From Mesorhizobium onobrychidis (GTDB lineage: Bacteria > Pseudomonadota > Alphaproteobacteria > Rhizobiales > Rhizobiaceae): DNA of 64,000 nt. The stretch covers positions 3,515,501 through 3,579,500 of the forward strand of contig NZ_CP062229.1 in NCBI RefSeq assembly GCF_024707545.1, given 5' to 3'. Each line of letters opens with the position of its first letter. The first letter of the stretch is position 1. The notes beneath the pieces are model-generated. The model searched no databases. It was given only the letters and a program-made list of their open reading frames with translations, and was not told the origin of the DNA. Made by a program: the position numbers and the translations under genes. This document shows, piece after piece, positions 50,027 to 59,577 of this stretch.

Positions 50027-51355
50027 ATGCGTTTGTCGCGCTATTTCCTGCCTATCCTCAAAGAAAATCCGCGCGAGGCCGAAATCGTCTCGCACCGGCT
50101 GATGCTGCGCGCCGGCATGATCCGCCAGCAGGGGCAAGGCAGTTTTTCGTGGCTGCCGCTCGGCAAAAGGGTGCTGGACAAGGTCTGCCGCATCATTCGC
50201 GAGGAGCAGGACCGCGCCGGCGCGCTCGAGATCCTGATGCCGACCATCCAGTCCGCCGAGCTGTGGCGCGAAAGCGGCCGCTATGACGACTACGGCAAGG
50301 AGATGCTGCGCATCAAGGACCGGCAAGACCGGGACATGCTCTATGGACCGACCAACGAGGAGGTGGTCACCGAGATTTTCCGCGCCTATGTGAAGTCCTA
50401 TAAGGATCTGCCGCTCAATCTCTATCACATCCAGTGGAAATTCCGCGACGAGGTGCGGCCGCGCTTCGGCGTCATGCGTTCGCGCGAGTTCCTGATGAAG
50501 GACGCCTATTCCTTCGATCTCGATTTCGAAGGCGCCAAGGCGGCCTATAACAGGATGTTCGTGTCCTATCTCAGGACGTTCACGCGCATGGGGCTGCAGG
50601 CAATCCCGATGCGTGCCGACACCGGGCCGATCGGCGGCGACCTCAGCCACGAATTCATCATCCTGGCCGACACCGGCGAGAGCCAGGTCTATTGCCATCG
50701 CGATTACCTCGCGCTTGATGTGCCGGGGGCGGACACCGACTTCTCCAACGATGCCGAGATCGGCGACATCGTCAAGGAATGGACGACGCCCTATGCCGCG
50801 ACTGACGAGATGCACGACGAGGCGGCGTGGGAGAAGGTTGCGACGAGCGACCGGGTCTCGGCCCGCGGCATCGAGGTCGGCCACATCTTCCATTTCGGCG
50901 ACAAATATTCGAAACCGATGGGCGCCAAGGTGACCGGGCCCGACGGCAAGGATCATTTTGTTTCCGGGGGTTCCTACGGCATCGGCCCGACGCGGCTAGT
51001 CGCGGCGATCATCGAGGCTAGCCATGACGACAACGGCATCATCTGGCCGGAGGCGGTGGCGCCTTTCGACATCGGCCTGATCAACATGAAAGCCGGCGAC
51101 GCCGACTGCGACCGCGTCTGCGACGAACTCCATGCGGCGTTTGTCGCCGTCGGCAAGGACGTGCTCTACGACGACACCGACCAGCGGCCAGGCGGCAAGT
51201 TCGCCACCGCCGACCTGATCGGCCTGCCGTGGCAAGTGATCGTCGGGCCGCGCGGCGTGGCGGCCGGCGAGGTCGAGATCAAGAATCGTAGGACCGGCGA
51301 GCGTGAGACGCTGCCGATCGAGGAGGTGAAGAAACGCTTCGGTTTTGCCACATGA
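50027..51355 (+). CDS. proS: Prolyl-tRNA synthetase (short alphaproteobacterial type)
   Basis: The 442-residue enzyme lacks the editing insertion of the E. coli form, as is usual in Rhizobiales. It has class II motif 2 ([20 protein letters not shown]) and motif 3 ([14 protein letters not shown]), and a C-terminal anticodon-binding domain. The start at 50027 ([14 protein letters not shown]) matches the family. An in-frame ATG at 49790 would add ~79 residues of no recognisable character that cross the sRNA promoter, and is rejected. It overlaps lolC by 4 bp. Confidence 0.95.
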
Positions 51356-52638
51356 GCGAAGCGGCAGCAGCGAAACCCCCGGCCGCCGGACCTTTTTCCG
51401 TGTTCGAACGCATGGTCGCGTGGCGTTATCTGCGCTCGCGCCGCAAGGAGACGGTGATCTCCGTCATCGCCTCGATCTCCTTCCTCGGCATCATGCTGGG
51501 CGTCGCCACGCTGATCGTCGTGATGGCTGTCATGAACGGGTTTCGCGCCGAGCTCCTAACGCGCATCCTCGGCGTCAACGGCCATCTGATCGTGCAGCCG
51601 CTCGACATGCCGCTGGAGGACTATGCGCAGGTTGCCGGCCGCATCAACGGCGTGCCCGGCGTCCAATACGCCATTCCGCTGATCGACGGGCAGGTCCTGG
51701 CGCAAGGCAATATCGGCGGCGGATCAGGGGCGCTGGTGCGCGGCATACGCGGCGAAGATCTGGGCAAGATTTCAATCGTCGCCAGCAATATCAAGCAGGG
51801 CTCGATCGCCGGCTTCGACACAGGCGAGGGCGTCGCCATCGGCAGCCGCATGGCCGACAATCTCGGTCTTGTGCTCGGCGACACCATCACGCTTATCGCG
51901 CCCGACGGCGATGTGACGCCGCTCGGCACGACACCGCGCATGAAAGGCTATCCGGTCACGGCGATCTTCGAGGTCGGCATGTCAGAATATGACAGCTCCA
52001 TCGTCTACATGCCGTTTTCGGAAGCGCAGCTCTATTTCAACATGGATGGCCGGGCTCAGGCGATCGAGATCTATGTCGACAATCCCGACAATGTCGATGC
52101 GCTGAAGCCGAAGGTCGAGGAGGCGTCGCAGCGGCCGATCACCATGGTCGACTGGCGAGAACGCAACAGGACTTTCTTCGATGCGCTGCAAGTGGAGCGC
52201 AATGTCATGTTCATGATCCTGACGCTGATCGTGCTGGTGGCGGCGCTCAACATCATTTCGGGCCTGATCATGCTGGTAAAGGACAAGGGCCACGACATCG
52301 CCATCCTGCGCACCATGGGCGCCACCCGGGGCGCGATCCTGCGCATATTCCTGATGACGGGCGCGGCGATTGGCGTAGTAGGCACCATCGCCGGGGTGCT
52401 GCTCGGCGTCGTAATCTGCCTGAACGTCGAGCGAATCCGCCAGTTCTTCTCCTGGCTGGCCGGCGAGAGGCTGTTCAATCCCGAGCTCTATTTCCTGAGC
52501 CAGCTGCCTGCCCGCATGGACGCCAGCGAGACGATCTCGGTGATCCTGATGGCGCTGGTGCTGTCGTTCCTGGCGACGCTGTTTCCGGCATGGCGCGCGG
52601 CCAGGCTCGATCCGGTCGAAGCGCTGAGGTACGAATGA
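51352..52638 (+). CDS. lolC: Lipoprotein-releasing ABC transporter permease LolC/LolE type
   Basis: The 428-residue inner-membrane permease has the N-terminal [20 protein letters not shown] and [22 protein letters not shown], a periplasmic domain at about residues 55-280, and three C-terminal helices. It forms LolCDE with the next gene, extracting lipoproteins from the inner membrane. Only one permease is present, so it presumably acts as a homodimer (LolF-like). Confidence 0.93.
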
Positions 52639-53318
52639 TGGCCGAGGCCATTATCGAGCTGAAGAGCGTCGAGCGGCACTATGTGCAGGGGCCGCGCAAG
52701 CTCACCATTCTCAACGGCGCCGATTTTTCGCTGAAGCGCGGCGAGATCGTGGCGCTGGTGGCGCCTTCGGGCACCGGCAAATCGACGCTGTTGCACACCG
52801 CCGGACTGCTGGAGCGGCCGGACGCCGGCGATGTCATTCTGGCCGGCCGCGCCTGCGGGCGGCTTTCCGACGACGAGCGCACGGCGATCCGGCGCAACGA
52901 TGTCGGCTTCGTCTATCAGTTCCATCACCTGCTGCCGGAGTTCACGGCGCTGGAAAACATCATGATGCCGCAGCTGATAAAAGGCCTGACGCGCAAGGAG
53001 GCTGCCGAGCGGTCGGCGCAACTGCTCGACTACATGCAGATCGGCAAGCGCGCGCAGCACCGCCCCTCCGAACTGTCCGGCGGCGAGCAGCAGCGCGTCG
53101 CCATCGCGCGCGCCGTCGCCAATGCGCCGCTGGTGCTGCTTGCCGACGAGCCGACCGGCAACCTCGACCCGGTCACCGCCTCCTATGTGTTCGAGGCATT
53201 GGGAGCGCTGGTCCGGCAATCGGGGCTGGCGGCGCTGATCGCTACCCACAATCACGAGCTTGCCTCGCGCATGGACCGTCGCGTCACGCTGGCCGACGGC
53301 AAGGTTGTTCCGCTTTAG
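52635..53318 (+). CDS. lolD: Lipoprotein-releasing ABC transporter ATPase
   Basis: The 227-residue ATPase has Walker [10 protein letters not shown] (43-51), signature LSGGEQQR and Walker [13 protein letters not shown]. The start at 52635 overlaps the lolC stop (ATGA); ATG 52638 is an equal alternative. The partner is the preceding permease. The 238 bp to the next gene hold no recognisable feature. Confidence 0.94.
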
Positions 53319-53556
53319 GGAGCTCGCACAGCGCTCCCCTTGTCGACGGCTTCGCTGCGGTCGCAAATGTGCGCCGCGCTGGCGGCAGGCCTGACGCGTC
53401 GCTGTCCGCTGCCCGTGCCCGACCGGGCTTAGCGCAGGCCCTGCCGATCGCCGTAGAAGATTTCTGACGTCGCACCGATGATTTCCGCCCGTCTGTGTTG
53501 TCCTGATCAATGGGCGCGCCTGGATGGTCCAGCGGCCCGGATAGCGAGGTGACCCC

Positions 53557-54303
53557 ATGGGATCGTTACAAGGTCGGAATGTCGTCGTCGTTGGAGGGAG
53601 CCGTGGTGTCGGCCGCTCAATCGTAGAAGCCGCCTTCTGCGAGAGAGCGACGGTCATGGCTGTCGCCCGCGGCGAGCCGGGGCTGGCGCAATTTGCCTGG
53701 GAAGCTTCGGGCGTGAAGACGTTCGCGGTCGATGCAACCGTGGAGTCCGCCCCTGACGAGGTCTTCGCCGCGCTGGAGCCGGACGTCCTGGTGATCTGCG
53801 CGGGTGCCCTTGCCCCCTCCGCGCCCCTACATGAACAGAACTGGAAGGCGTTCTCCGCAAACTGGGAAACGGACGTCAAGGTATCGTTCCTGTTTTGCAA
53901 GGCCGCGCTCCGACGTCCGCTCAAACCGGGCGCCCGGATTGTTCTGATCTCCAGTGGCGCAGCGTTGACCGGGGGGCCACCGAATTCCGGCGGCTATGCC
54001 GGCGCAAAACGCATGCAGATGTTCCTGGCCCATCATAGCCAGAAGGAATCCGATCGGCTGGGCCTGGACCTGCGCTTCGTGGCGCTTGCGCCTATGCGCA
54101 TCATGCCAGGGACCGGCGTGGGCAACGCCGGCATCGAGAGCATTTCGGCCTATATGGGGATCCGGCCCGCGGAGTTCATCGCCGGTTTGACCGACATGCA
54201 GACGCCAGCCGACGTGGGACGGGCGGTGGTGGCACTCGCCACCCAACAATTGCAAGGGTGTTCCTTCGCAGTGAGCGGGAGCGGGCTTGCGCCGGCGGGC
54301 TGA
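53557..54303 (+). CDS. Short-chain dehydrogenase/reductase
   Basis: The 248-residue SDR has the cofactor motif GGSRGVGRSI near residue 14, the ICAGA core, an IVLISSGAAL strand with the catalytic Ser, and the YxxxK pair in GGYAGAKRMQ. The substrate is unknown. The ECF sigma gene begins 42 bp downstream on the same strand, so the two probably form one transcript and perhaps one regulatory unit. Confidence 0.88.
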   Translation: MGSLQGRNVVVVGGSRGVGRSIVEAAFCERATVMAVARGEPGLAQFAWEASGVKTFAVDATVESAPDEVFAALEPDVLVICAGALAPSAPLHEQNWKAFSANWETDVKVSFLFCKAALRRPLKPGARIVLISSGAALTGGPPNSGGYAGAKRMQMFLAHHSQKESDRLGLDLRFVALAPMRIMPGTGVGNAGIESISAYMGIRPAEFIAGLTDMQTPADVGRAVVALATQQLQGCSFAVSGSGLAPAG

Positions 54304-54345
54304 GGCGCGCGTAATGCAAACCGGACTCAAAATTGCCGGATCCGC

Positions 54346-55380
54346 ATGACAGACGCCCAGGCACCTCTCAAGCCGATACGCCAGCCGGGCCAGCCGATCC
54401 TCGATCGGCTGGCCTTCGAGCAGTTCACGGTGGCCCATCGCCGGGAGCTCAAGCTCCATTGCTATCGCATGATGGGTTCGCTGCACGAGGCGGACGACCT
54501 CGTCCAGGACACGTTTCTGCGCGCCTGGCGTGCAAGGTCGGAGTTCGACGGGCGGGGTTCGATTCGCGGTTGGCTCTACACGATCGCGACCAACTCCTGC
54601 CTCAACGCCCTCAAGGCCAGGTCGAGGACGCGTCGCATTCTCCAGCAGCCCGGACGGCCGGCCTCCCACGGGCGCGCCACAGACGGGCCTGCAGCCGAGG
54701 TCACCTGGTTGGAGCCTTACCCGGATGCGGAGCTGCCAGGGCTCACTGATGGTGAGCCGGGTCCGGAAGCGCGGTACGAGACCCGCGAAGCCGTCCAGCT
54801 CGCCTTCGTCGCCGCGATCCAGGACCTGCCACCCAGGCAGCGCGCCGCCCTGCTGCTTTCCGACGTGCTGGGATGGTCGGCTGTCGAGACGGCGGGATTG
54901 CTGGGTGGATCGACAGCATCGATCAACAGCGCATTGCAGCGGGCCCGCGCAACCCTCGCGGCGCGATATCCTGAGGGACGTCCCATGCAGCGATCGAAGC
55001 CCGGCCGGGAAGAAGGCCTGCTGCTCGAACGTTACATGCAGGCCTGGCAGGCCGCCAATCTCGACAGCCTGATCGAGCTGCTGCGGGAGGACGCGACCTA
55101 TCGCATGCCGCCCTGGCCGGAATGGTACCAAGGACGCGCAGCGATCCGCGGTTTCCTCGAGACCATCTGGGGTAACTTTGCGGGCTTCCGCACCATGGCA
55201 ACCGGTGCCAATGCCCAGCCGGCAGTCGGTGTCTATTCCCGCAGCCACAATGACCCTGCGTGGCGAGCCCATTCCCTGCATGTGATCGAGCCCGCTGACG
55301 GCGGAATCGCGGCTCTGACGATCTATGTGCCGCCGCTCGGCCCGAAATTGTTTCCCGCCTTCGGCCTGCCGCCGGCCTAG
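54346..55380 (+). CDS. ECF sigma factor with C-terminal SnoaL-like domain (SigG type)
   Basis: The 344-residue protein has sigma region 2 (LKLHCYRMMGSLHEADDLVQ, then TFLRAWRARSEFDGRGSIRGWLY in sense), region 4 (DLPPRQRAALLLSDVLGWSA with LGGSTASINSALQRAR), and a C-terminal NTF2/SnoaL-like domain from about residue 220 (YMQAWQAANLDSLIELLRED). ECF factors of this type lack a classical anti-sigma factor; the fused domain is thought to control activity. No anti-sigma gene is adjacent, in agreement. Confidence 0.9.
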   Translation: MTDAQAPLKPIRQPGQPILDRLAFEQFTVAHRRELKLHCYRMMGSLHEADDLVQDTFLRAWRARSEFDGRGSIRGWLYTIATNSCLNALKARSRTRRILQQPGRPASHGRATDGPAAEVTWLEPYPDAELPGLTDGEPGPEARYETREAVQLAFVAAIQDLPPRQRAALLLSDVLGWSAVETAGLLGGSTASINSALQRARATLAARYPEGRPMQRSKPGREEGLLLERYMQAWQAANLDSLIELLREDATYRMPPWPEWYQGRAAIRGFLETIWGNFAGFRTMATGANAQPAVGVYSRSHNDPAWRAHSLHVIEPADGGIAALTIYVPPLGPKLFPAFGLPPA

Positions 55381-55537
55381 CGTCTATATATGTTTAGAAG
55401 GCCTGGACTTCACATTCCCCAACGGGCCGACCGCGAGCCGCATTTTCCGGTCAGCGCGAGAACGGCGGCTCTCAACCTTTCCTTAACCCTGCCGAACTGA
55501 GCGCCCGGAATTTCGCGGCGCGCTCGGATTGCGGTCG

Positions 55538-55572
55538 TTGACATTCGAACAAAATTAGAACAAAATACGAAC
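55538..55572 (+). promoter_or_regulatory. SOS promoter with two overlapping LexA boxes
   Basis: TTGACA (55538-55543) is followed after 17 bp by CAAAAT (55561-55566). Across the -10 region lie GAAC at 55547, 55558 and 55569, each separated by exactly 7 bases. GAAC-N7-GAAC is the reverse complement of the alphaproteobacterial SOS box GTTC-N7-GTTC, so two boxes overlap in tandem. LexA binding here would block the promoter. Confidence 0.85.
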
Positions 55573-55594
55573 ATACTGAAAACAGGAGAGCGTT

Positions 55595-55681
55595 ATGACC
55601 GGTCTTGTTCAGGATGTCGTGTCACTGGTGTGCATGAGCACGTTTCTCATTTCCATGGCGATCTGGATCGGAGCGATGTGA
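55595..55681 (+). CDS. 28-residue SOS-controlled membrane peptide (SidA-like architecture)
   Basis: The ORF reads MTGLVQDVVSLVCMSTFLIS followed by MAIWIGAM, a single hydrophobic helix, with the strong ribosome binding site AGGAGAG (55584-55590) five bases before the ATG. Tandem LexA boxes overlap its promoter. In Caulobacter the SOS-induced SidA is a 29-residue inner-membrane peptide that blocks division, and the size, topology and control match; whether the sequences are homologous I cannot tell. A division-inhibitor role is inference. It is too short for standard gene finding. Confidence 0.8.
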   Translation: MTGLVQDVVSLVCMSTFLISMAIWIGAM

Positions 55682-55748
55682 GGCAGCGCGGCCCGTTCTT
55701 CACGGGGTGAGGGGCAGCGTCGGAGCTCGGTGGTTCAGCGCCGCTTTG

Positions 55749-56492
55749 TCAGCCGGCCCTGCGGGCCGTTTCGACAAGCAAAGGTGCCGCCGGTCCGAAG
55801 ACATCCTCGAAGGCGGATTTCAGCGCGAGATCGAGGTCGGCCATCCCCAGGGGAAGGCCGAGGTCGACGAGACTGGTGACGCCGTAATCCTGCACGCCGC
55901 ACGGCACGATGCCGCTGAAATGGCCGAGATCGGGCTCGACATTGATGGCGATGCCGTGAAAACTCACCCAGCGCCTCAGCCTGATGCCGATGGCGGCGAT
56001 CTTGTCCTCGGCGAGCGATCCGTCGGGCAGGGCGGGGCGATCCGGCCGCACCACCCAGACGCCGACGCGGTCCTCGCGCCGTTCGCCGCGCACGTTGAAG
56101 GCGGCGAGGGTGCCGATGATCCATTGTTCAAGGGCCGCGACGAAAGCACGGACATCCTCGCGCCGCCGCTTCAGGTCGAGCATCACATAAGCGACCCGCT
56201 GGCCTGGCCCATGATAGGTGTATTCGCCGCCGCGCCCGGCCGCGAACACTGGGAAACGGTCCGGCTCGATCAGGTCCTCGATGCGGGCGCTGGTGCCGGC
56301 GGTGTAGAGCGGCGGGTGCTCGACCAGCCAGACCATCTCGCCGGCGGCGCCGCTTCGGATCGCTTCGGCACGCGTCTCCATCACGGCAAGCGCATCCGGA
56401 TAGGCGGTGAGGCCGGGTTCGATCCGCCATTCGACCGGCGCCGAACCGGGCAGGGGCAGGAACGACGTGGCGATCTGGCTGCGTTCTGTCAT
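55749..56492 (-). CDS. lipB: Octanoyltransferase (lipoate biosynthesis)
   Basis: The 247-residue enzyme transfers octanoyl groups from acyl carrier protein to lipoate-dependent enzymes. It has [60 protein letters not shown] (in two parts) with the catalytic Lys, and [13 protein letters not shown] with the catalytic Cys. It is convergent with the SOS peptide gene. Confidence 0.95.
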
Positions 56493-56558
56493 GGTGTGTC
56501 TCGTCTAATGCGCGCCGCGTTTGAAGGGAACCGTGGGCGCGCTTTAGATTTTTGTTTT

Positions 56559-56607
56559 ATGCATGTCGTTGTCCCAAAACCGCTGCGCACTTTTGGGCGA
56601 CATGCAT
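56559..56607. repeat. Rhizobiales-type palindromic repeat with CCCAAAA arms
   Basis: ATGCATGTCG (56559-56568) pairs with CGACATGCAT (56598-56607), and CCCAAAA (56573-56579) with TTTTGGG (56591-56597). The CCCAAAACC(G) core recurs at 63880. This is a dispersed intergenic element common in rhizobia. The rest of the lipB-tRNA gap shows nothing further. Confidence 0.8.
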
Positions 56608-56774
56608 TAGCCTCACATATGGCGGCAATCGGCTGAAACGTCCAGTTCCGAGCGCGTTCCAACCCTTTGCAGGCTTATGGCGAATGCCGGGCAATTATTG
56701 CGCGACGCGCCCTTGTTTCGCCGGAAACGATTTGCTACACGCCGCGAGCCGGTTCGTTCCGGCTCCTACCACGT

Positions 56775-56859
56775 GCGGTCGTGGCGGAATTGGTAGACGC
56801 GCAGCGTTGAGGTCGCTGTGGGGCAACCCGTGGAAGTTCGAGTCTTCTCGACCGCACCA
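56775..56859 (+). tRNA. tRNA-Leu (anticodon GAG)
   Basis: The 85-nt gene has acceptor arms GCGGTCG / CGACCGC, an anticodon stem CAGCG / CGCTG with loop TTGAGGT and anticodon GAG, a long variable arm (class II) and an encoded CCA. T6 follows at 56861-56866 and may aid termination. The 277 bp to the next gene hold nothing recognisable. Confidence 0.97.
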
Positions 56860-57136
56860 GTTTTTTCCAATAAACTATTATTTTTATTGCGCAATTTTTG
56901 TTTCACTGCGGCTCTTCCTGGAACTGTTTACGCAAACTGAAACACTGCGCGAACCTGCGGCTGGTTGGGCGCGGAATGCCGCGCACTAACCGCGTGGTTT
57001 GACCCCATCAAATGCCAGCTGCTTCAAAGACCGAACCGTGCCGCGAAGCGGACCATTGGGAAAGCGCGCTTTTCACGCAAGCGCTCACGCGGCTATCTAT
57101 TGATGTGATTGCGCGGCAAATAGCCCGCTAGTTGCG

Positions 57137-58066
57137 TTATCTTGAGGCTTGTTTGCGGACACGACTTTCCAGCCGCGAAAGCAGGTAGTCGACCTCTTGT
57201 CTGGCCACCGCCGACAACGCACTGCCCGGCTTGCGCTGGGCGTCGGATGCGATGGCGCCGCGCTTCATCATCACATATTTGCGTACCGCAAGTCCCACAC
57301 CGGGTTGCTGCTCATAGCGCAGATAGGGCAGGTGGGCGTCGAAAAGATCGTGCGCCTTGTCGCGCTCGCCGGCAGCAGACAGTTTCACCACGTCGACCAG
57401 CATATCGGGGAAGGCATAGCCGGTCATCGCGCCGTCGGCACCGCGCTCCATCTCGAAGTCGAGGAAGAGGCCGCCATTGCCGGTGAGGATGGACAGCGGC
57501 CGCAGCGAGCCGTCCTTCTGGAAGCCGCGCAGCGCGCTGATCTTCTCCAGGCCCGGCCAGTCCTCGTGCTTGAGCATGAAGCAGGCAGGGTTGTCGGTGA
57601 CGATGCGGCGGATGACGGCCGGCGTCATGACGACCGAGAGGGTCAGCGGATAGTCCTGCAGCACGAAAGCAACATCCTCGCCGACCGCTTCGGATGCGTT
57701 GCGGAAATAGGTAACGATCTGGTCGTCGGTGCGCAGCGCCGGCGGCGGCGCAATCATCACGCCCTGCGCGCCAACCTCCATCGAGGCGCGCGCAAGGCTG
57801 CGCATGGCGGCGAAGCCAGGGGCGGAGACGCCGACGATGACCGGCAGCTTAGTGCGCGTCACGATACGCTTGACGATCTCGAGCGATTCGCCGGCGTCGA
57901 GCTTCGGGGCCTCGCCCATGATGCCGAGGATTGTCATTCCATCGACGCCGCAGCGCTCGTAAAAATCGACCATCGAATCAAGTGATTTCCAGTCGATCTT
58001 GCCATCCGCCTCGAACGGCGTCGGGGCAATGGTGTAGACACCTTTGGTGTCGGGACCGATGGCCAT
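57137..58066 (-). CDS. Dihydrodipicolinate synthase (DHDPS) family protein
   Basis: The 309-residue TIM barrel starts GVYTIAPTPFEADGKIDW and has the DHDPS/NAL family loop GIMGEAPKLDAGESLEIV in place of GTTGE, the Tyr in LQDYPL and the Schiff-base Lys in FMLKHEDWPG. The altered GIMGEA motif suggests that it is not the lysine-pathway DapA but a related aldolase or hydratase for another 2-keto acid. It stands alone, divergent from the PAP2 gene. Confidence 0.85.
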   Translation of the reverse strand: MAIGPDTKGVYTIAPTPFEADGKIDWKSLDSMVDFYERCGVDGMTILGIMGEAPKLDAGESLEIVKRIVTRTKLPVIVGVSAPGFAAMRSLARASMEVGAQGVMIAPPPALRTDDQIVTYFRNASEAVGEDVAFVLQDYPLTLSVVMTPAVIRRIVTDNPACFMLKHEDWPGLEKISALRGFQKDGSLRPLSILTGNGGLFLDFEMERGADGAMTGYAFPDMLVDVVKLSAAGERDKAHDLFDAHLPYLRYEQQPGVGLAVRKYVMMKRGAIASDAQRKPGSALSAVARQEVDYLLSRLESRVRKQASR

Positions 58067-58225
58067 GAGATCCTCCTAAATTCAGCTTTTAGCATAGCGC
58101 GGGACCGACGGTCCGATCCAACCGGCGGTTGGTCCGGACGGGCGCGAAGTAACCGCATGGTAAGCTTGCTTCGCTATCACATAGACAATGCCACCGATGG
58201 CGTATTTGAATCTTGGTAAATTAGT

Positions 58226-59245
58226 ATGTCCTTAACTATAGGGGTGGGGGAATACAGTCCATCGACGAGATGGTCATTGCGCCTTGCTTTCTTTGTAACA
58301 ATCTACGTGGCATGCGCGTCTGCACTAAGTCCACAGTCTTTCTTCCACCTAATCCTGGTTTACGCCCAGAAGTTCGCCGCCGGTATTCCGATCTTGTTTG
58401 TTGCTGGTGTCTGTTCCGCTGCGCTTATTTATGGTCGAGGAAAACCAACTCGCTACGCCGTAGATTTGGTCCGAGCGCGCTGGCGTGGCTGTTTGCTGGT
58501 GCTCCTGTTCTTCTTCGCCAGCTTGACCGCGTTCTCTACCTACAAGATGGCCATCCCGTCCGTCGTTCCATTCTATGCGGACAACTGGTTAGCCGATCTG
58601 GATGAATGGCTGCACGGGACAGCGCCGTGGGAACTCACGCACAAGCTCGACAGCAACACGTGGTCGATCGTCGTCTTCAACAGCTATGAGGTCATTTGGT
58701 TTTTCCAATGGTTCGGCACCATGCTTTTCGTGTCTCTCTGGTCGAACAAGATTGGCCGCATCCGCTACCTCTGGGCAGCCGCGCTGACGTTATCCATCCT
58801 CGGCACCATCTTGGCCTTGGCGCTGGCGTCGGTCGGACCGATCTACTACCACCAGTTTGTTGGTGAGGACCGCTTCAGCGGACTCAAGGTCGCCATGGAC
58901 GGTCTCGACTATAGCCACATGGTGCGCGAGCCCGCTGCATATCTGCTGACGGCTTACCAGAGCGGCCGGCCAGACCTTGGCGGTGGCATCTCGGCCATGC
59001 CAAGCATGCACGTCGCCTTTGCCACACTGAATGCCTATCTGCTTTCTTCCCTCAATCTCTGGCTCGGTATTCTCGGTTGGATGTTCGCAGCCCTGATAAT
59101 GTACGGTTCGGTATATACCGGATGGCACTACGCAGTTGACGGCTACGTCTCCATTATCGTGGTGTCGGTGATCTGGTGGGTGACCGGACGCCAGCCAGCG
59201 CAGATCGAGACACAGTTTGCGATACGCCAACCCATAGAAGGTTAG
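58226..59245 (+). CDS. PAP2-superfamily membrane protein
   Basis: The 339-residue protein has about eight helices. The catalytic motifs of the PAP2_3 (inositolphosphorylceramide-synthase-like) group are visible: SAMPSMHVAFATLNAYL and YTGWHYAVDGYVS with the paired His and Asp. It probably hydrolyses or transfers a lipid-linked phosphate at the membrane. The region is less G+C-rich than the nuo and cob genes. The start has no strong ribosome binding site, so it is uncertain. Confidence 0.8.
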   Translation: MSLTIGVGEYSPSTRWSLRLAFFVTIYVACASALSPQSFFHLILVYAQKFAAGIPILFVAGVCSAALIYGRGKPTRYAVDLVRARWRGCLLVLLFFFASLTAFSTYKMAIPSVVPFYADNWLADLDEWLHGTAPWELTHKLDSNTWSIVVFNSYEVIWFFQWFGTMLFVSLWSNKIGRIRYLWAAALTLSILGTILALALASVGPIYYHQFVGEDRFSGLKVAMDGLDYSHMVREPAAYLLTAYQSGRPDLGGGISAMPSMHVAFATLNAYLLSSLNLWLGILGWMFAALIMYGSVYTGWHYAVDGYVSIIVVSVIWWVTGRQPAQIETQFAIRQPIEG

Positions 59246-59577
59246 GTGCCTGGCAATGTCAGCCAGGGGCAACAGCGCTGGTTAACTGGGCGTCGCCCTC
59301 TGCATAAGGGACGACAAATCCGCGAGGTCGAAACTCGCGGAAAGAGAAGTCTTGCGCTGTCGGACAATGCAATCATGCTCTCCGGGCTATCATCCTTCTT
59401 CGGCCGCGAGATCAGGCGCGATCCGCGCAGCGATTGAAATCAAGAACTGTCGATCTGGGGAATGACTTTGCCAAAGTGAAAATCCAGCTTTAACCTTCTG
59501 CAACGCATTTCGAGGTTGAGAACCCGGTTTTGATACTCGATCTGCCTGGGAAAGCCGCACGAAACGGAGCCATCTTT
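59246..59577. other. Intergenic region between PAP2 and GH32 genes
   Basis: The stretch holds two hairpins and no supported gene: CCTGGC / GCCAGG (59249-59267) four bases after the PAP2 stop, and CCGCGAG / CTCGCGG (59320-59340), either of which may terminate the PAP2 transcript. A promoter for the GH32 gene is expected here but is not obvious. Confidence 0.5.

Follow-up and report, generated by a model that had tools for sequence, protein, structure and literature searches.

A conserved 28-codon gene beneath overlapping LexA boxes in Mesorhizobium, a candidate SidA-like inhibitor of division

A frame of only 28 codons lies directly below two overlapping LexA boxes in the genome of Mesorhizobium onobrychidis. 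Is it a real gene, is it under LexA control, and what could so short a product do after DNA damage? We addressed these questions from the 64,000-nucleotide stretch of DNA that contains the locus (hereafter the window), and from searches for relatives of the encoded peptide in bacterial genomes and viral contigs.

The peptide gene, its promoter and its product

The initial annotation had read three GAAC tetramers here as two overlapping LexA boxes laid over a TTGACA-N17-CAAAAT promoter, followed by AGGAGAG and an ATG opening a 28-codon frame, and each of these elements is indeed in place (Table 1). The ATG opens MTGLVQDVVSLVCMSTFLISMAIWIGAM. In a simple consensus scan of both strands of 55380-55760, TTGACA-N17-CAAAAT was the sole promoter-like site (10/12 matches), and the LexA boxes cover its spacer as well as its -10 hexamer.

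Table 1. Features of the peptide locus and its surroundings, in coordinates of the window.
Feature	Position	Strand	Remark
lolC/E permease gene	51352..52638	+	NCBIfam TIGR02212 above cut-off
lolD	52590..53318	+	probably the ancestral upstream neighbour, now separated by two genes; TIGR02211 8.4e-77, below cut-off
SigX5-type ECF sigma factor gene	54346..55380	+	TIGR02960; between lolD and peptide gene
-35 hexamer TTGACA	55538..55543	+	consensus scan
LexA box 1, GAAC-N7-GAAC	55547..55561	+	GAACs at 55547 and 55558
LexA box 2, GAAC-N7-GAAC	55558..55572	+	GAACs at 55558 and 55569; one GAAC common with box 1
-10 hexamer CAAAAT	55561..55566	+	overlapped by LexA boxes
Ribosome-binding site AGGAGAG	55584..55590	+	conserved in Mesorhizobium alignment
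28-codon gene of putative SOS membrane peptide	55595..55681	+	ATG at 55595, stop ends at 55681; frame conserved, dN/dS 0.087
lipB	55749..56492	-	convergent downstream neighbour; NF010921 above cut-off

From the GAAC frequency, about 0.007 copies of the triple GAAC would be expected in the window, which contains one. A lone GAAC-N7-GAAC is weak evidence, with six in the window against 1.8 expected. Genome-wide, GAAC-N7-GAACA has 62 matches, compared with 33 for the reversed control pattern, and a pair of such matches 11 bases apart is found at the peptide locus only. Elsewhere in this genome, lexA (L132), ssb (L122) and an imuA-like gene (L096) are preceded by the same kind of box; these three genes were recognised from their translations and not by means of a family library. 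The genome also holds two more GAACAAAATGAGAACA sites, one per contig (G000:C1:1636098 and C2:55165; L101, L131).

A DNA search recovered the region in the window's own genome and in 59 of 60 same-genus genomes, and in the remaining one (G055) the peptide was recovered by protein profile. In a separate search, 77 of 80 loci (80 of the 162 confirmed loci) belonged to Mesorhizobium. The Mesorhizobium set used here comprises 60 loci, that of the window's genome and those of 59 relatives. All 60 retain the 28-codon frame, a GAAC-N7-GAAC upstream of the peptide and TTGAC[AT], and all three GAACs are present in 39 of them. Across this set (50 different DNA and 22 different protein sequences; dS usable in 1,085 pairs), the frame has a mean dN of 0.046 and a mean dS of 0.534, giving the ratio of 0.087; nonsynonymous changes thus lie well below synonymous ones, and equal rates were not seen. 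Third codon positions are the most variable in the alignment, and identity declines beyond the promoter on one side and the stop codon on the other. The peptide gene is a real gene. Its control by LexA, likewise proposed in the initial annotation, is well supported by the sequence of the promoter region, by its conservation and by the enrichment of boxes at distant homologues described below.

Judged by hydrophobicity, the 28-residue product consists of a single strongly hydrophobic stretch and no other domain, which agrees with the earlier proposal of one hydrophobic helix as far as a single such stretch is concerned. It has no match in Pfam or NCBIfam at E ≤ 10, nor in PHROGs at E ≤ 1. Among the protein-database matches listed (120 of 802 in one search), all are nameless or called 'hypothetical' or 'uncharacterized' protein, with the exception of P0025, whose UniRef name 'NADH dehydrogenase subunit 1' is probably a misannotation. 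D7 and F17 are the best-conserved residues, followed by A/S10, S/A13, S15 and W24. Conservation follows a weak period close to 105 degrees per residue (three alignments; P 0.025, 0.035 and 0.094), which would be compatible with one helix face contacting a partner. Of 104 peptides, 60 have more lysine and arginine on the N side and two on the C side, with 42 balanced (totals of 95 vs 19), and this bias alone would suggest an N-in helix. The topology is uncertain, since acidic residues are also richer on the N side (181 vs 32 in the 104 peptides) and the window peptide is without lysine or arginine.

Relatives beyond Mesorhizobium and their gene neighbourhood

Judged by profile matches, the peptide family is not peculiar to Mesorhizobium and extends to many genera of the order and to Parvibaculaceae, and weakly to two further families. 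The family searched was taken as Rhizobiaceae because it contains Mesorhizobium. Here, a DNA pattern combining box and N-terminus matched 46 of 297 genomes and 21 of 109 genera, its reversed control giving 0 among the matches listed, and protein profile A1 matched 123 of 247 genomes and 62 of 109 genera (E ≤ 0.01). From the 105 A1 matches that had no locus yet, 60 were fetched, these being weaker or second matches, and an exact box is present in 39 of the 60. The 21 others comprise five that have a box with one change, 11 second copies, one locus cut by a contig end (L323), one chance-like match (L318) and three that are outright without a box (L279, L287, L330). One genus (g91) has two related peptides, also without a box, whose hydrophilic C-terminal tails are longer (L291, L302).

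The wider profile A2 matched 98 of 297 genomes and 44 of 122 genera of the order (E ≤ 0.02). Fetching covered 40 of 76 order matches, with close repeats and some of the weakest passed over, and 54 of 65 A2 loci have the exact box (three of the 65 stem from the A2 class search). Taken together, 91 of 121 inspected A1 and A2 loci carry an exact box at most 160 bp upstream, compared with 30 of 14,419 windows placed at random in these loci (0.2%); two windows at fixed positions, one on each side, gave none. The seed of A2 included A1 order matches, most of which were already known to carry boxes; leaving out ten such loci, the count is 82 of 111. Since the boxes were no part of the protein searches, they constitute largely independent evidence.

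In Parvibaculaceae, named through Plav_3199, profile A3 had matches at E ≤ 1 in 35 of 40 genomes, with 34 scoring below 1e-3, and a box lies within 200 bp upstream in 29 of 30 loci. Several of these loci (L402, L404-L407, L411 and others) have two LexA boxes ahead of the peptide gene, spaced 26 bases apart, an arrangement that differs from the overlapping pair of Mesorhizobium. Copies are also present in Sinorhizobium other than S. meliloti Rm1021 according to the protein database.

Class-wide matches are scarce (A1, 11 of 337 genomes; A2, 3 of 327). None of the ten A1 class loci (L189-L198) has a box, and among the A2 class loci L339, L340 and L341 a box is found only at L339, which belongs to Parvibaculaceae; L341 comes from the window's own genome. 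A class search with profile A4 at the very loose threshold of E ≤ 2 gave 29 loci, three of them with a box (L435, L443, L456), and the other 26, lacking one, were discounted as chance matches. L443 and L456 are weak matches (E 0.31 and 0.48), and both combine a box with a position immediately ahead of dnaE; they were retained solely for the box, the adjacency to dnaE and the 33-residue peptides found in the protein database. The L456-type peptides include one named Rhizomicrobium. L318, L381 and L393 look like chance matches.

In the window, an SDR-like gene (recognised by eye) and the SigX5 sigma factor gene, together spanning 53557-55380, separate lolD from the peptide gene. At the 59 other loci of the genus, flanks of at most 1.0-1.5 kb showed neither gene. 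A LolD match is present in 49 of the 60 Mesorhizobium loci and a dnaE match in none of their flanks (up to 1.0-1.5 kb); the dnaE of the window's genome sits elsewhere. Outside Mesorhizobium's family, 57 of 58 distinct order loci have a dnaE match downstream in the same orientation as the peptide, beginning 98-722 bases past the start of the peptide match, and 30 of the 58 have a co-oriented LolD match upstream (flanks of 0.8-1.5 kb), which in some may be another ABC ATPase. All such calls are tblastn matches of at least 30% identity. The order count refers to 58 distinct places after L381 and L393 had been dropped, an earlier grouping of 66 having counted several twice. A dnaE match also accompanies the peptide in 26 of 30 Parvibaculaceae loci, and the family profile loci show dnaE in 26 of 59, LolD in 30 of 59 and none of the tested neighbours in 18 of 59. 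Based on the order-wide synteny and the rearrangement in Mesorhizobium, the ancestral gene order was probably lolC-lolD-peptide-dnaE, and the peptide gene does not depend on dnaE.

Copies in prophages and phages

Some genomes of the family have extra, box-less copies of the peptide, which often begin with MRD and carry a short tail. Box-less copies in prophage or phage surroundings were found at L284, L286, L292, L293, L303, L305, L314, L320 and L322, and on viral contigs at L465-L479. At L293, L303, L305 and L320 the neighbouring genes match phage families, namely a repressor, an Erf-like protein, an exonuclease and phrog_2045. The viral loci come from scans of viral contigs with two phage-type alignments, which yielded 15 loci (12 + 3) encoding such peptides, and in 0 of these 15 does a box lie within 160 bp upstream. 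The 15 are not all independent: the L477 and L478 peptides are those of L303 and L314, some peptides repeat, and the independence of L465 and L322 is doubtful because their contigs are equally long. Neighbours were tested against families at two viral loci, L468 and L477, and gave RecT-like, exonuclease and repressor families; the Erf-like proteins of L477 and L303 are identical over the tested stretch.

The phage copies are less constrained, with a dN/dS of 0.52 over 27 pairs (ten copies, eight distinct). Profile A1 detected no relative in the viral contigs, and tblastn with single peptides gave no match in plasmids or phages, perhaps because such queries are too short. These phage-borne relatives had not been foreseen in the initial annotation. 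Carriage by phages outside LexA control suggests that the activity of the peptide is useful in infection.

Proposed function and relation to known systems

We hold it to be rather probable that LexA represses the gene and that its product, a single helix in the inner membrane, delays division, most likely via FtsW. Division delay is the best reading because of the likely kinship with Caulobacter SidA, in size, control and probable place, and because the genome has no SulA above cut-off. The case for division inhibition rests on the size of the peptide, its single helix, the probable position of sidA near dnaE and a search for SulA (PF03846), which gave nothing above cut-off in the genome, the best match (E 0.82) having an internal stop. 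sulA is reported as not widely conserved outside gammaproteobacteria (PMC4211646).

The gene, its conservation, the LexA boxes and the synteny are results of computation, whereas damage induction, leader length, topology, target and division effect are inferred as follows. DNA damage would lead to RecA-stimulated cleavage of LexA and free the promoter under the boxes, and the peptide would be translated from a leader of about 20 bases. It would then enter the inner membrane, its N-terminus perhaps cytoplasmic, and bind a late divisome component that is itself integral to the membrane; FtsW, the target proposed for SidA, is the likeliest. Contact may be made through a conserved helix face of D7, A/S10, S13, F17 and W24, and septum synthesis would be held back until repair is complete. 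The peptide would probably represent the rhizobial branch of an alphaproteobacterial family with its ancestral place between lolD and dnaE, to which SidA may belong.

More tentatively, and with slightly less than even confidence, we propose a wider scenario. There might be an ancient, still unnamed family of SOS checkpoint peptides in Alphaproteobacteria, located between lolD and dnaE, that includes SidA or is ancestral to it. Temperate phages of Rhizobiaceae might have captured the peptide and moved it from LexA control into early recombination operons, in order to hold host division during replication.

As an unlikely alternative, the peptide might be membrane-active like TisB and DinQ: induced by the SOS response and controlled by an antisense RNA, it would depolarise the inner membrane and slow growth. 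The rhizobial peptide is indeed in the same size class as TisB and DinQ of E. coli, being very short, single-helix and LexA-controlled. However, TisB is a cationic amphipathic pore former with antisense control by istR, whereas the helix of the 28-residue members is nearly uncharged, with one charged residue at positions 8-26 across 45 peptides. Moreover, the leader would measure only about 20 bases as counted from the predicted -10 hexamer, the simple consensus scan found no promoter-like site on the opposite strand of 55380-55760, and little is conserved besides promoter, boxes, ribosome-binding site and frame. At the sequence level, the peptide locus bears no sign of antisense-RNA control, unlike TisB and DinQ. 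TisB is described as SOS-induced and depolarising (PMC8145889), and DinQ as a toxic peptide with a single transmembrane segment that has two antisense RNAs (PMC3567139).

We consider it quite unlikely that the peptide acts, without a direct role in division, on another envelope process such as LolCDE, a protease or an ion pump. The recurrent linkage to lolCD would fit this explanation. On the other hand, the 18 family profile loci without any tested neighbour argue against it, as do the phage copies near recombination genes, which is the setting of the phage lambda division inhibitor Kil.

A role as leader peptide or first cistron that puts dnaE, or lipoprotein export, under SOS control is very improbable. 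The near-constant dnaE match downstream in the order, often with a LolD match upstream, would favour such a role, but peptide and box are conserved in 60 Mesorhizobium loci with no dnaE match in their flanks (up to 1.0-1.5 kb), and we reject it because Mesorhizobium keeps the peptide gene with no dnaE nearby. In addition, two genes stand between lolD and the peptide gene in the window, lipB is convergent, and neither dnaE nor LolD was recognised beside the peptide in the three viral contigs, out of 15, for which neighbouring ORFs were listed. Finally, short ORFs are common here, with 105 of 25 or more codons overlapping 52000-59500, but a chance frame below LexA boxes is refuted by conservation, namely by the low dN/dS, the 28-codon length in all 60 loci and the box enrichment at protein-only matches.

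As a kind, SOS-induced small membrane peptides are known; this family, its extent, its usual place and its phage copies are apparently undescribed in the sources searched. Titles and abstract beginnings revealed no SOS division inhibitor or such peptide for rhizobia. Counting against the proposed role, the main text of a Sinorhizobium meliloti small-protein study contains neither LexA nor SOS by term counts (PMC10117765). The way in which rhizobia and their relatives halt division after DNA damage is likewise apparently undescribed in the sources searched, and the peptide provides one concrete candidate for it across many genera.

Among known systems, Kil of phage lambda resembles the phage members in its setting. 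Kil is a short division inhibitor that acts on FtsZ, and it is encoded in an early operon near recombination genes, surroundings similar to those of some of the phage members. The phage copies would show a host checkpoint taken over by phages. Damage-induced small membrane proteins that block late division have been described as YneA in Bacillus, SosA in Staphylococcus and ChiZ in Mycobacterium, and FtsW has been argued, from low-confidence models, to be the common target of such peptides (PMC13396833). Whereas YneA and ChiZ are described with a LysM domain and SosA with an extended helix (PMC13396833), the rhizobial peptide is a bare helix.

Another close likeness, drawn from published descriptions, is to SidA, with which the rhizobial family shares size, a putative inner-membrane helix and SOS-type control, and probably its usual place by dnaE. 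In this part of the Caulobacter genome we take the CC and CCNA numberings to be offset by about 76, judging from other gene pairs, which would put sidA within a gene or two of dnaE. With sidA numbered CCNA_02004 (PMC11034885) and dnaE numbered CC1926 (PMC1839093), sidA probably adjoins dnaE or lies very near it. A place beside dnaE is no established criterion of a SidA family, and the Mesorhizobium gene, unlike sidA in its probable place, is no longer near dnaE. No Caulobacter name appears among the listed matches of three protein-database searches (120 of 802 in one). SidA itself is described as a 29-residue, SOS-induced inner-membrane inhibitor of division that interacts with FtsW and FtsN (PMC4211646). 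By analogy in size, control and probable place, SidA is likely a relative of the rhizobial peptide family, and if it belongs to it, the Caulobacter peptide would become part of a deep alphaproteobacterial checkpoint.
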